Part shown: positions 53,711 to 58,810 of the stretch, one piece after another | Numbering within the stretch: position 1 is the stretch's first letter | Layout of the letters: each line of letters opens with the position of its first letter | NCBI GenBank assembly: GCA_021325595.1 | Contig: JAJPGX010000028.1 | Location: 1 to 61,754 of the forward strand | Length of the DNA stretch: 61,754 nt | Reading direction: 5' to 3' | Source of the DNA: Nitrososphaerota archaeon | GTDB taxonomy: Archaea > Thermoproteota > Nitrososphaeria > Nitrososphaerales > Nitrosopumilaceae | Program-made: the position numbers and the translations under genes | Notes under the pieces: model-generated | What the model saw: only the letters and a program-made list of their open reading frames with translations | Told to the model about the DNA's origin: nothing | The model's database searches: none

Positions 53711-54868
53711 CTAAAAGTTGTATTTACTTTTGTATGGTGATACAGCACGTAATTCCTTTACAACTTGTTTTAATACATTAACAGTTTCATCTATTTCTGT
53801 TTCAGTATTTGTTATTCCAACAGTAAGTCTTAATGAACCTGTAATCTGTTCATGAGAAAAACCCATTGCTTTTAGTACATGTGATGCTTTTTGAATTCTA
53901 ACAGAACATGCAGAACCGGTTGATGCAGCAATTTTGTGTTCGTCAAGCTTTATGATGAGATCTTCACCATTTACACCAAGAAAGGTAAAATGCGCATTAT
54001 TTGTAATTCTTTTTTCTGGATGGCCATTGAGTGTAGTATCTGGTATTTCACTTAAGATTCTATTAGATAACTTTGTTGTAAGATTTTTAAAATGAACCAT
54101 ATTTTGTGAAAGATTATCTTTTGCTAATCTACAAGCTGTACCAAACCCAACTATGCTTGCCACATTTTCTGTTCCAGAGCGAAGGCCTTTTTCTTGACCT
54201 CCTCCAAGAATGAGAGGAGATATTTTTACTCCTTTCCTGATATATAGAGCCCCTACGCCTTTGGGACCATTGATTTTATGTGATGATACTGAAAGCAAGT
54301 CCACTCCATCTATTTTTACATCAATGGGAATTTTCCCTACTGCCTGAACAGCATCAGTATGAAACGGTATGTTTTTTTCTTGTGCAATAGTTGCTATTTC
54401 CTTAATGGGTTGAACTGTACCAACCTCATTATTTGCATACATTATAGTAATAAGAGATGTGTCTGTTGTAATCTCCTTTCGTACATCATCTGGATTAACC
54501 ATTCCGTACTTGTCAACTGGAATATATGATACTCTATAGTCTTGTTTTTCTAAAAGTTTACATGGTTCAAGTATTGCATCATGTTCTATGGCTGATGTTA
54601 TTACATGTCTGCCCTTTGATTGTGCTGTGATGCCATGAATTGCAGTGTTGTTTGATTCAGTTCCACCTGAAGTTAGGAAAATTTCTTCAGGGGTTGCGTT
54701 AATTAATGCCGCTATCTGTTTTCTTGCATTTTGAATTGCTACATTTGCAAGTCTGCCATATTTGTGGATTGAAGATGGATTTCCATACTGTTCTTTAAAG
54801 TATGGGATCATTTCTTGAATCACTATGTCATGTACTGGTGTAGATGCAGCGTTATCTAGATAGATCAA
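53711..54868 (-). CDS. Cysteine desulfurase (NifS/IscS type) coupled to larE
   Basis: The 385-residue PLP enzyme has the Schiff-base Lys198 in SSHKINGPKG, NNEVGTVQP and HTDAVQA, and the catalytic Cys321 in STGSACSVR. It releases sulfur from cysteine as a persulfide. Its ATG overlaps the larE stop by four bases (54865-54868), and larE overlaps larC likewise, so all three are translated together. This points to sulfur delivery for LarE, although a general Fe-S role is also possible. No IscU/SufU scaffold is beside it. Confidence 0.92.
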   Translation of the reverse strand: MIYLDNAASTPVHDIVIQEMIPYFKEQYGNPSSIHKYGRLANVAIQNARKQIAALINATPEEIFLTSGGTESNNTAIHGITAQSKGRHVITSAIEHDAILEPCKLLEKQDYRVSYIPVDKYGMVNPDDVRKEITTDTSLITIMYANNEVGTVQPIKEIATIAQEKNIPFHTDAVQAVGKIPIDVKIDGVDLLSVSSHKINGPKGVGALYIRKGVKISPLILGGGQEKGLRSGTENVASIVGFGTACRLAKDNLSQNMVHFKNLTTKLSNRILSEIPDTTLNGHPEKRITNNAHFTFLGVNGEDLIIKLDEHKIAASTGSACSVRIQKASHVLKAMGFSHEQITGSLRLTVGITNTETEIDETVNVLKQVVKELRAVSPYKSKYNF

Positions 54869-55665
54869 TCTGTAATCACATTGAGCTTTCCAGGCTTGTA
54901 TCCTTCCGGATCTATAATTATTGTCTCAAATCCTAGATCTGACATGAATTTCTTTAATATTGTAATTTTTGCATCTTCTTTGATTCTACCTAGTTCATTT
55001 TTTTCCACTTCTATTTTTGCATTATTTCCAAAGTCGCGAACTCTTACCTGTTTTACCCCAAAAAGCTGCTTGACCATCATTTCACTTTTTTCTATTCTGA
55101 CTAATTTTTCAGATGTAACTATAGTGCCCCAAGGAATACGAGAGGCAAGACAAGAGTTTGATGGTCTGTCATATACTGAAAGTCCTACTTTCTTTGCTGT
55201 CTTTCTTACCTCTGATTTAGTAAATCCAACTTCAACTAGAGGGCTGAGTACACCACTGTTTTTCAAAGCAGCTATTCCAGGTCTATATTCGGAAAGGTCG
55301 TCTACATTAGTTCCATCTACAATTATACCGTATTTTTCTCTATTTAACAAATCTAGCAAATGAGTTGCTAATTCTGTTCTACAATGGAAACATCGATTCT
55401 TGTCATTTTTAATAAAATCTGGATTTTCAAGCTCGTTGTATTCTATTACTATGTGCCTAATTCCAATCTCACTACAAATTTTCTTTGCAGATTCCAATTC
55501 CTCCTGTGATAAAGTTTTATAATCTGCCGTGACTGCAGTTGCAGAGTTACCTAAGGAATAATATGCTGCATAAGCAACTAGTGCACTATCTACACCTCCA
55601 GATAACGCAACAAGCACTTTACCTCTTCCATTGAACCAATCTGTAAGATTTTTGATATTTGTCAT
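54865..55665 (-). CDS. larE: LarE, pyridinium-3,5-bisthiocarboxylate mononucleotide sulfur transferase
   Basis: The 266-residue PP-loop protein has the ATP motif SGGVDS at 22-27, a CFHC pair (Cys92, Cys95) and Cys172 in RPSNSCLASRIPWG. LarE adenylates P2CMN and replaces two carboxylate oxygens with sulfur. Cys172 lies in the segment that carries the sacrificial cysteine of L. plantarum LarE. Cys92 and Cys95 with Cys172 could alternatively hold a 4Fe-4S cluster, as in the cluster-dependent LarE type. The overlapping desulfurase favours a catalytic, replenished sulfur source. Overlaps larC and the desulfurase by four bases each. Confidence 0.9.
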   Translation of the reverse strand: MTNIKNLTDWFNGRGKVLVALSGGVDSALVAYAAYYSLGNSATAVTADYKTLSQEELESAKKICSEIGIRHIVIEYNELENPDFIKNDKNRCFHCRTELATHLLDLLNREKYGIIVDGTNVDDLSEYRPGIAALKNSGVLSPLVEVGFTKSEVRKTAKKVGLSVYDRPSNSCLASRIPWGTIVTSEKLVRIEKSEMMVKQLFGVKQVRVRDFGNNAKIEVEKNELGRIKEDAKITILKKFMSDLGFETIIIDPEGYKPGKLNVITD

Positions 55666-56894
55666 TTTGTACCAAGTTTCTGTTTTACTTCGGATGAAAT
55701 TAATTCTGATGCCTCTTTAAATGATATTGATAATGCATCTGCAATCGATTTAATATCGCTTGATTCTACCTTGAAATGCTTGATTATGTCATTATTTTTT
55801 ACTATTTTGCATTTGACAGTAAAGTTTCTTCCAAGAATTGTTATGGGAGTTGAAATGATGACTCTTGGTACTACATAACGACTTGATGTTCTAATTCTTA
55901 CTCCAAGTGTTCCAGTCTCTGAAATTAGTATGTCGATTAGATTATTTACAGACGAAGAATCACAAATTACTGAAACAAGATTGGTGGGGCGACCTTTTTT
56001 TGTTATTGCTGCAGTGACAGTAACGTCTTTTGCACCATTTGACATTAATTTATCAATCATATGACCTATGATTTCTCCAGAAACATCATCTACGTTTGTC
56101 TCAAGGATATGTACAGTGTCTATACCATATTGTTGAATTGACTCTCCTCTTACAATTTTCAGTACATTTGGAAAATCATTGAAATCTTTCTTTCCTGCTC
56201 CATATCCAATAGTCTTTATTTTCATTGGGGGATAAAATTCAGTGCATCTATCGATCAAATTTACTATCAAAGTCGCTCCAGTCGGTGTAGTCAGCTCTTC
56301 TTTTACTTGACCCCCATGAATTATGATTTCTGAATTGCGAAATATTTCTAAAATTGCACTAGCTGGGTTTGAAACTGTGCCGTGCGAAAAACTCAGGCTA
56401 CCTCCACCTACTGCAATTGGCGTAGAAATAATTTCGTCTGCAAAAATACCTAGATCATCAAGTGCTATCGCAGTTCCAATTATGTCTATTGCTGTGTCTA
56501 TGCTTGACGCTTCATGAAAATGTACTGACTCTGTGGACTCACCATGGATTTTTGATTCTGCAAATAATAAAGATCTTACACTCTCTTTTGCAAAAACCTT
56601 GGCAGTATCAGATAATCCAATTTTGTCTGATGACAACAAAATACATTCTTGAATATCTACTCCTTTTCTTTCATGATGTGATTCTTCTATCTCTAAATTT
56701 AGGTACGTTGCTTCAATTCCATGTTTTACGGTTTTTTCAAAATCTATTTTTTTAATCTTTGAACCCCTCAAATAGCTCTCTATAGAATATGCTCCATCTA
56801 TCACCTTTGACTTGTTTGCTCCCATGTTTACTAGTGCGGAAAGCAACATGTCTCCTGAAATTCCAGCAATCTGACCATCTATGACAAGTACCAT
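55662..56894 (-). CDS. larC: LarC, nickel insertion enzyme for the nickel-pincer nucleotide
   Basis: The 410-residue protein is a single continuous LarC (no programmed frameshift as in L. plantarum). Motifs in order: GISGDMLLSA (11-20), VHFHEASSID (His125, His127, Glu128), AVGGGSLSFSHG, EELTTPTGAT (199-208), GYGAGKKDF, LETNVDDVSGE (264-274), and GRPTN (301-305). It uses CTP to insert Ni into the thiolated nucleotide, completing NPN. A TATA box about 29 bases upstream predicts a leaderless transcript. It diverges from the malate dehydrogenase gene. Confidence 0.93.
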   Translation of the reverse strand: MVLVIDGQIAGISGDMLLSALVNMGANKSKVIDGAYSIESYLRGSKIKKIDFEKTVKHGIEATYLNLEIEESHHERKGVDIQECILLSSDKIGLSDTAKVFAKESVRSLLFAESKIHGESTESVHFHEASSIDTAIDIIGTAIALDDLGIFADEIISTPIAVGGGSLSFSHGTVSNPASAILEIFRNSEIIIHGGQVKEELTTPTGATLIVNLIDRCTEFYPPMKIKTIGYGAGKKDFNDFPNVLKIVRGESIQQYGIDTVHILETNVDDVSGEIIGHMIDKLMSNGAKDVTVTAAITKKGRPTNLVSVICDSSSVNNLIDILISETGTLGVRIRTSSRYVVPRVIISTPITILGRNFTVKCKIVKNNDIIKHFKVESSDIKSIADALSISFKEASELISSEVKQKLGTK

Positions 56895-56918: not shown

Positions 56919-56929
56919 GCATATAAATT
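56919..56929 (-). promoter_or_regulatory. TATA box of the larC-larE-desulfurase unit
   Basis: On the minus strand GAATTTATATG places TTTATATG about 29 bases before the larC ATG at 56894. The spacing predicts a leaderless message for the whole unit. Confidence 0.55.
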
Positions 56930-57082: not shown

Positions 57083-57997
57083 ATGATCACAATAATTGGA
57101 GCTGGTAAAGTTGGAGGCGCGGCAGTATTGTTTACCGCATTAAGAAAAGTAACAGATGAGATTCTTCTTCTAGATGTTGTTCAAGGTCTTCCACAAGGCG
57201 AGGCGATGGATATCAATCACATGTTGTCTGAAAAAGGAATCGATGTAAATGTTCGAGGTTCTAATGATTATTCTGAAATGAAAGGTTCTGATATTGTTGT
57301 AGTTGTTGCAGGTTCTGGAAGAAAACCAGGAATGACAAGAATGGATCTTCTCAAAGTCAATGCATCAATAGTAAAAGGAGTTGTAGAAAACATCAAAAAA
57401 TATGCAAATGATTCAATGATAATTCCTGTAACAAATCCATTAGATCCAATGACCTATCTCACATACAAGGTTTCAGGATTCCAAAAAAATAGAGTTTTTG
57501 GAATGGGTAACATGCTTGATCTTTCAAGATTTGTACAATTCATACATGAAACTACGGGTTATTCTAGACACTCTATTCGAGCTATGGTAATAGGAGAACA
57601 TGGTGAAAACATGCTTCCTCTGCCAAGATTTTCAACAGTATCTGGAATTTCATTACTGCATCTTCTCCCAAAACAGAAACTAGATGAAATCACACAAGGA
57701 ACAAGACAAATAGCAGCAAAAGTAATAGAATTAAAAGGTGCTACAGTACATGCTCCAGGAAATGCAATTTCAACTATTATTGAGGCAGTCCTACTAGATA
57801 CCAAGCAAGTTATTCCTGTAGCGACATATCTTGATGGAGAATACGGTCACTCTGGAGTGTCAATAGGTGTACCTGCTGTTATAGGTAAAAACGGTGTAGA
57901 AAAAATCATAGAACTGGATCTTGACCTAAACGAAAAAGAATGGTTCAAGAAGGGCGTGGATAGTGTTAAAAACGCAATAGCAAACCTTGAACTTTGA
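57083..57997 (+). CDS. mdh: NAD-dependent malate dehydrogenase
   Basis: The 304-residue LDH/MDH-fold enzyme has GAGKVGG (NAD-binding), Asp31 ending beta-2 which favours NAD over NADP, and the substrate-specificity residue Arg80 in [10 protein letters not shown] (Arg, as in malate dehydrogenase, rather than Gln of lactate dehydrogenase). The catalytic pair is IGEHGEN (His) and NPLDPM. It interconverts malate and oxaloacetate in the 3-hydroxypropionate/4-hydroxybutyrate and TCA reactions. It lies divergently next to larC and directly upstream of larB. Confidence 0.92.
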
Positions 57998-58033: not shown

Positions 58034-58810
58034 TTGGATATCACAGACATTCTCCAGTCTCTTGATCTAGGAAAGATTAGTGTGCCTAAGGCAAAAAAAC
58101 TTCTTTCATTATATTCTATTGAAAAAGTAGGAGATTTTGCAAAACTTGATGTTGGGCGCAGATTACGACGTGGCATACCTGAGGTAATATTTGCAGAGAA
58201 AAAAGAATTATCTTATTTAAAAAAAATCATACGTGCAGCATCTTCAAGATCTGATTCTGTTTTGGTTTCTAGAATAAATAAAAAACATTATCAAAATATA
58301 ATCAAATTCTCCCGGAACAATAAACTAAAAGTCAAAGTTGGGAAGAATACTACATCTGTACTTTTTTACAAGAAGCTGCATTCATCGGGAGGAAAGGTTG
58401 GCATACTAGCAGCAGGAACATCCGACATAGGTATTGCAGAAGAATCTAGGCTCATATGTGAAGCCATGGGTTGCGATTGTATATGTAGTTATGATGTAGG
58501 CATTGCAGGAATTCATAGATTATTTCCAATAGTAAAAAAAATCATACAAGAAGATGCGGATGCAATTATCGTAGTAGCTGGAATGGAAGGCGCATTGGCA
58601 TCAGTAGTCTCATCATTGGTTGATATTCCAGTCATAGGAGTTCCATCATCTGTTGGTTATGGATATGGTGGAAATGGAACTGCTGCACTTGCATCTATGC
58701 TACAAAGCTGTACACTAGGGCTTTCGGTTGTAAATATTGATAACGGTATAGGTGCAGGCGCATTTGCGGCTAATATTGCAAATAGAAACAAAAAAAGAAC
58801 TAAGACCTGA
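58034..58810 (+). CDS. larB: LarB, pyridinium-3,5-biscarboxylic acid mononucleotide synthase
   Basis: The 258-residue PurE-like protein with a TTG start shows the LarB signature DFAKLDVGRRLRRGIPEVIFA at 34-54, GILAAGTSDIG, VAGMEGALASV, and the C-terminal NIDNGIGAGAFA. Cys225 (MLQSC) matches the reactive cysteine of L. plantarum LarB. It hydrolyses the AMP part of NaAD and carboxylates the pyridinium ring, the first step of NPN synthesis. It follows malate dehydrogenase by 36 bases; an AT-rich TTTTTAAC at 58004 may be its own TATA box. Its last 11 bases overlap the convergent VIT gene. Confidence 0.93.
   Translation: MDITDILQSLDLGKISVPKAKKLLSLYSIEKVGDFAKLDVGRRLRRGIPEVIFAEKKELSYLKKIIRAASSRSDSVLVSRINKKHYQNIIKFSRNNKLKVKVGKNTTSVLFYKKLHSSGGKVGILAAGTSDIGIAEESRLICEAMGCDCICSYDVGIAGIHRLFPIVKKIIQEDADAIIVVAGMEGALASVVSSLVDIPVIGVPSSVGYGYGGNGTAALASMLQSCTLGLSVVNIDNGIGAGAFAANIANRNKKRTKT

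Follow-up and report, generated by a model that had tools for sequence, protein, structure and literature searches.

Where a cysteine desulfurase gene overlaps larE, as in the contig analyzed here (61,754 nucleotides, referred to in its entirety as the window), two questions arise: whether LarE sacrifices one of its own cysteine sulfurs in each reaction or is reloaded, and whether the neighboring desulfurase is what reloads it. The preliminary description of this DNA had proposed reloading, with the neighbor as the natural sulfur donor. The genes involved (Table 1) form a locus for the synthesis of the nickel-pincer nucleotide (NPN); its host is called an ammonia-oxidizing archaeon (AOA) because AmoA is present in its genome. 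Within this locus, larC is the first gene of a larC-larE-nifS unit, and the malate dehydrogenase gene (mdh) and larB are divergent from it, mdh lying upstream of larB. The unit is probably read as one transcript, since its three genes overlap without any spacer and a candidate TATA box lies ahead of larC. Four-base overlaps had been described at both junctions of larE, and they are indeed present, that of larC and larE being ATGA; the desulfurase, however, begins with TTG (in the context TTGATC), not with the ATG previously assigned to it.

Table 1. Features of the NPN locus, given as positions of the window.
Feature	Position	Strand	Evidence or remark
Cysteine desulfurase, NifS/IscS type, 385 aa, TTG start	53711..54868	-	Pfam Aminotran_5, E 3.3e-85
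larE, pyridinium-dicarboxylate mononucleotide sulfur insertase, 266 aa	54865..55665	-	TIGR00268, 264.7 bits (cut-off 150)
larC (LarC1+LarC2), nickel insertion	55662..56894	-	PF01969, E 1.1e-105; LarC1 and LarC2 above cut-off
Malate dehydrogenase (LDH/MDH family)	57083..57997	+	PF00056/PF02866; NF004863, 373 bits
larB, P2CMN synthase, for the carboxylation/hydrolysis step in NPN synthesis	58034..58810	+	NF033503, 241.6 bits (cut-off 175)
TTGA overlap: nifS TTG start and larE TGA stop	54865..54868	-	Sequence
ATGA overlap: larE ATG start and larC TGA stop	55662..55665	-	Sequence
Putative archaeal TATA box (TTTATAT), ending 26 nt before the larC ATG	56921..56927	-	Sequence inspection
LarE Cys92 codon, predicted cluster ligand	55390..55392	-	Aligns with first Cys of NRCYNCKK in 8cnz
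LarE Cys95 codon, predicted cluster ligand	55381..55383	-	Aligns with second Cys of the 8cnz CYNC pair
LarE Cys172 codon, predicted cluster ligand	55150..55152	-	Aligns with later Cys of 8cnz

Membership of the LarE family is indicated by the TIGR00268 score and by the LarE structures that fill the listed top fold matches of an AlphaFold2 model (mean pLDDT 92.1); mmLarE-[4Fe-4S] is among the best Foldseek matches (8cnz_C, TMq 0.86, rmsd 2.1 Å). Cys92, Cys95 and Cys172, previously put forward as potential cluster ligands, were all located in larE, together with a fourth, non-conserved cysteine (Cys64). That the three might lie near enough to one another to share a cluster has indirect support from the fold match with 8cnz. 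The three are invariant in 78/78 sampled loci of the class, and Cys92 and Cys95 are also cysteine in 81/81 sequences of a second set, from 80 loci of other genomes; Cys172 formed part of the scan pattern for this set, and its invariance there is not independent, as that of Cys92 and Cys95 is. The alignment against cluster-dependent and sacrificial LarE proteins, proposed earlier as a check, matches the three cysteines with those of 8cnz and not with the position of L. plantarum Cys176. The latter corresponds to Ser171, with Cys172 one residue further, an offset also reported for T. maritima LarE (PMC9283937). A sacrificial-type enzyme would carry a cysteine at the Cys176 position and no CXXC; here a serine occupies that position and the CXXC pair is present.

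The name of the matching NCBIfam model, “ATP-dependent sacrificial sulfur transferase LarE”, would favor an enzyme losing the sulfur of Cys172 once per reaction, like Cys176 of L. plantarum LarE. Nonetheless, we regard this as highly improbable, given that the model spans both types, that the CXXC-C motif includes the invariant Cys92 and Cys95, and that Cys172 is offset from Cys176. Furthermore, T. maritima LarE, which also has CXXC-C (as do most LarE homologues), has been shown to contain a [4Fe-4S] cluster and to retain its cysteine sulfur, in work that made use of the variants C92A, C95A and C172A, and it turns over catalytically with E. coli IscS and cysteine (PMC9283937). Since the name of TIGR00268 is given to cluster-type LarE proteins as well, their automatic annotation is misleading.

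On the basis of the CXXC-C motif, the alignment with 8cnz and the biochemistry of the T. maritima enzyme (PMC9283937), LarE of the window can be assigned by homology to the known [4Fe-4S]-dependent, non-sacrificial type, as had been anticipated, and its replenishment is well supported. Very probably, Cys92, Cys95 and Cys172 would hold a [4Fe-4S] cluster as in T. maritima; a desulfurase would load sulfide onto the free iron of this cluster ([4Fe-5S] chemistry), and the cluster-bound sulfide would attack adenylylated P2CMN, LarE being reloaded and not consumed. This chemistry is not new, as it is established biochemistry published for T. maritima, and the neighboring desulfurase is not needed to infer it.

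As for the desulfurase itself, the catalytic residues attributed to it are in place, namely Lys198 (codon 54275-54277) and Cys321 (codon 53906-53908); among the sampled sequences with residues at these positions, the PLP lysine is invariant in 69/69 and the loop cysteine in 68/68. The protein reaches 513.9 bits against TIGR03402 (NifS), below the cut-off of 530.75, and 319.9 bits against the subfamily model NF002806, above its cut-off of 304. It is the only NifS-type gene in the genome of the window at E ≤ 1e-60. The same genome encodes SufS in a suf group composed, by eye, of SufB/SufD-like, Rieske-type, SufS and SufU-like proteins. A class-V aminotransferase (G000:C12) was also considered as a second desulfurase and rejected, its catalytic cysteine being missing by eye.

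The arrangement recurs across genomes. Of the 78 sampled loci, 67, spread over four families (f1, f2, f3, and f5), have a NifS-type gene immediately after larE, and the TTGA overlap is identical in all 45 nifS-bearing sampled loci of the window's family; in the other families, where start codons were picked by script, the spacing between larE and nifS goes from overlaps up to 185 bases. Two more of the 78 loci (L105 and L106, family f6) have a SufS-type gene after larE, followed in L105 by a scaffold gene. Beyond larC, the sampled loci usually contain mdh and larB, mdh being situated between larC and larB in most AOA loci. Outside AOA, a wide scan found a desulfurase within 4 kb of larE in 3/79 loci (a fourth match is a short fragment), with direct adjacency in none of the 79; two of the three, looked at in detail, contain an isc-like set (L184) and a mnmA-nifS pair (L160). 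The nifS-larE adjacency is real and conserved in AOA. As a separate observation, L120:2222-4336 (minus strand) encodes a radical-SAM protein, AmmeMemoRadiSam/PflA-like by eye, apparently intein-interrupted with a homing-endonuclease-like stretch.

Such conservation could be passive: nifS, as the gene of a general desulfurase, would then have kept the place beside larE that it had in the AOA ancestor, without being functionally linked to it. Four-base overlaps are common enough to allow this (exactly four bases in 6/38 same-strand ORF pairs of the window), and the desulfurase is co-absent with a predicted RNA thiolase (see below) rather than with LarE. We nevertheless consider it unlikely: the adjacency persists over four families with changing spacing, and a different type of desulfurase occupies the same place in f6, neither of which would be expected without an advantage of co-expression. 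The four-base overlap is ordinary by itself; the nifS-larE adjacency exceeds chance.

At the other extreme, NifS could be the dedicated main donor of LarE, with SufS compensating later in those lineages in which nifS was lost. The direct adjacency and the strict TTGA overlap just described argue for it, together with the SufS-type desulfurase that follows larE instead in f6 and the catalytic turnover of T. maritima LarE with IscS and cysteine (PMC9283937). This reading is possible, but doubtful in our view, as a desulfurase is rarely near larE outside AOA, several apparent losses of NifS have left LarE in place, and the presence of NifS follows that of the predicted RNA thiolase, a PP-loop/NFACT-R protein.

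Regarding these losses, 14 of the LarE-bearing sampled genomes have no NifS genome-wide: nine in f1 (G046, G130, G153, G167, G203, G215, G228, G239, and G241), plus every one of the five genomes sampled from genus g28 of f3 (G114, G139, G152, G183, and G238). In the six loci inspected (L082, L123, L216, L217, L226, and L227) nifS is missing and larE, larC, mdh and larB are kept, the three LarE cysteines being confirmed in L082 and L123. LarB was found in 13/14 of the NifS-less genomes, the exception being G215 (86% complete), and SufS is above cut-off in 13/14, with only a weaker paralogue found in G114. NifS is dispensable for keeping LarE, since intact lar loci exist without nifS and LarE-bearing genomes without NifS. 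Several lineages thus appear to have lost nifS and retained larE, a point that is new here and makes the question of which desulfurase feeds LarE testable by species comparison. Raw counts in f1 had also suggested a co-loss of LarE and NifS, which was discarded because the contigs of two of the LarE-negative genomes, G171 and G214, end inside larC (L218, L219), the signal being at least partly an assembly effect. In another nifS-less locus of g28 (L037), a peroxiredoxin-like protein follows larE.

What NifS follows is a PP-loop and NFACT-R protein (PF02568, PF18297), the predicted RNA thiolase, located in the window's genome at G000:C4:6131-7129 (L215:1429-2430, minus strand). Among the AOA families, it is absent or fragmentary in 12/14 NifS-less, LarE-bearing genomes vs. 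7/164 genomes with both NifS and LarE (Fisher p ~3e-12, with hand-counted tallies from printed tables and genomes treated as unrelated, i.e., with no correction for phylogeny). Genus g9 illustrates both states, as G159 and G212 have NifS and thiolase, and G046, G153, G167, G215, and G228 have neither. The exceptions are G239 and G241, with the thiolase and no NifS, and the seven NifS-bearing genomes without thiolase, some of which are incomplete assemblies. Streamlining alone does not explain the co-absence, since genomes as small as 0.8 Mb (G123 and G146) keep both. NifS presence follows the predicted RNA thiolase, not LarE, a correlation that we count among the new points of this work; our reading of it is that NifS would be a shared donor, on which the thiolase depends more than LarE does.

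The preliminary assignment of the neighbor as natural sulfur donor is consequently retained only in part: the conserved adjacency favors it, but a dedicated role agrees poorly with the LarE-bearing lineages devoid of NifS and with the link to the thiolase. We moderately favor a shared NifS, co-expressed with LarE and probably able to donate to it, which as the only NifS/IscS-type desulfurase of the cell would also serve the thiolase encoded elsewhere, its NifS-tracking client. LarE could in turn obtain its sulfur from a different source, of which SufS would be the simplest, a choice suggested by its presence in these genomes, or possibly from a donor of free sulfide. The adjacency over four families is the counter-point to this sharing, as it suggests a special tie between nifS and larE.

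The locus raises a further question, namely which enzyme uses the NPN, as LarA is the only user known. LarA (PF09861) is above cut-off in 18/250 class genomes and in 4/174 AmoA-positive ones (G127, G175, G239, and G241). LarE is found in about 165 of these 174 (~95%), and LarA is missing in 161/165 of the LarE-bearing AmoA-positive genomes (hand counts, with T. maritima as the LarA control genome). PF09861 has no match in the genome of the window (99.5% complete), and a LarA profile made from four AOA sequences and one outgroup sequence, run against 17 AOA genomes without a known LarA (the window's included), matched none of them over its full length; weak partial matches (E 5e-6 to 2e-3) occurred in 4/17, none of them the window's genome. 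A hidden or divergent LarA was accordingly rejected, as Pfam Lar_N and this profile gave only weak partial matches, although homology searches could miss a very divergent homologue. DUF362 (PF04015), of the same Pfam clan as LarA and present in 19/250 class genomes, was rejected as NPN user for the lack of any match in the window's genome. Two side observations concern the distribution of LarA: four genomes of f13 and f11 (G001, G005, G013, and G202) show the reverse situation, with LarA and no strong LarE match, and L047 and L048 (family f7) encode the LarA domain within a ~655-667 aa frame whose N-terminus resembles sugar nucleotidyltransferases (CMP-sugar synthetase type), a possible fusion.

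The occurrence of LarA in several families of the order that lack AmoA, and hardly in AOA, might indicate that AOA lar genes are decaying remnants of a LarA-bearing ancestor. This we find quite improbable, because the persistence of LarE in nearly all AmoA-positive genomes would be unexpected for a decaying pathway, and the sampled reading frames of LarE and LarC, like almost all of those of LarB, are uninterrupted and retain conserved motifs, the genes being kept even in loci that have no nifS. Nearly all AOA apparently conserve the NPN pathway without any known user enzyme, which is new here; in the literature library searched, there was no report on NPN in Thaumarchaeota or on NPN genes without a known user in AOA. 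From this correlation, the use of NPN by a protein other than LarA seems somewhat more probable than its alternatives. Malate metabolism is a lead and no more, since the model that best fits the LarA of G127 is one of a malate racemase family, although the score falls short of the cut-off, and malate dehydrogenase is a constant neighbor.

Overall, the combination of a cluster-type LarE, a shared NifS and an NPN user other than LarA is the best explanation of the locus, and we hold it to be fairly likely. Its widest form, in which nearly all AOA would make NPN for a non-LarA enzyme of core metabolism, possibly malate-linked, with nifS supplying both LarE and the RNA thiolase, has in our estimation about an even chance of being right.

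Among known systems, T. maritima LarE shares with the protein described here the CXXC-C cysteines at 92, 95 and 172, the PP-loop SGGVDS and the one-residue offset from L. plantarum Cys176; on the other hand, its desulfurase genes are distant from larE (PMC9283937), whereas nifS overlaps larE here, and T. maritima possesses LarA, which the window's genome lacks. The M. maripaludis LarE-[4Fe-4S] (PDB 8cnz, 8cp3, and 8cp4) is likewise archaeal, with three aligned cysteines and the close fold match given above, but it is only 30% identical to the present LarE over the structure alignment. L. plantarum LarE (PDB 5udq and others) has the same fold, PP-loop, substrate and reaction, and differs in the lack of a CXXC pair and in the sacrifice of Cys176. 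Finally, larBCE without larA has been described in ~15% of genomes, many of them cyanobacterial, and a non-LarA user has been proposed (mBio 2024, PMC11796402). The AOA share with those cyanobacteria the NPN synthesis genes lacking a LarA homologue; they belong to another domain of life, and their locus adds a conserved neighborhood of malate dehydrogenase and NifS. The result presented here thus extends the cyanobacterial question of an orphan NPN to another large group, with the mdh neighbor as a lead.
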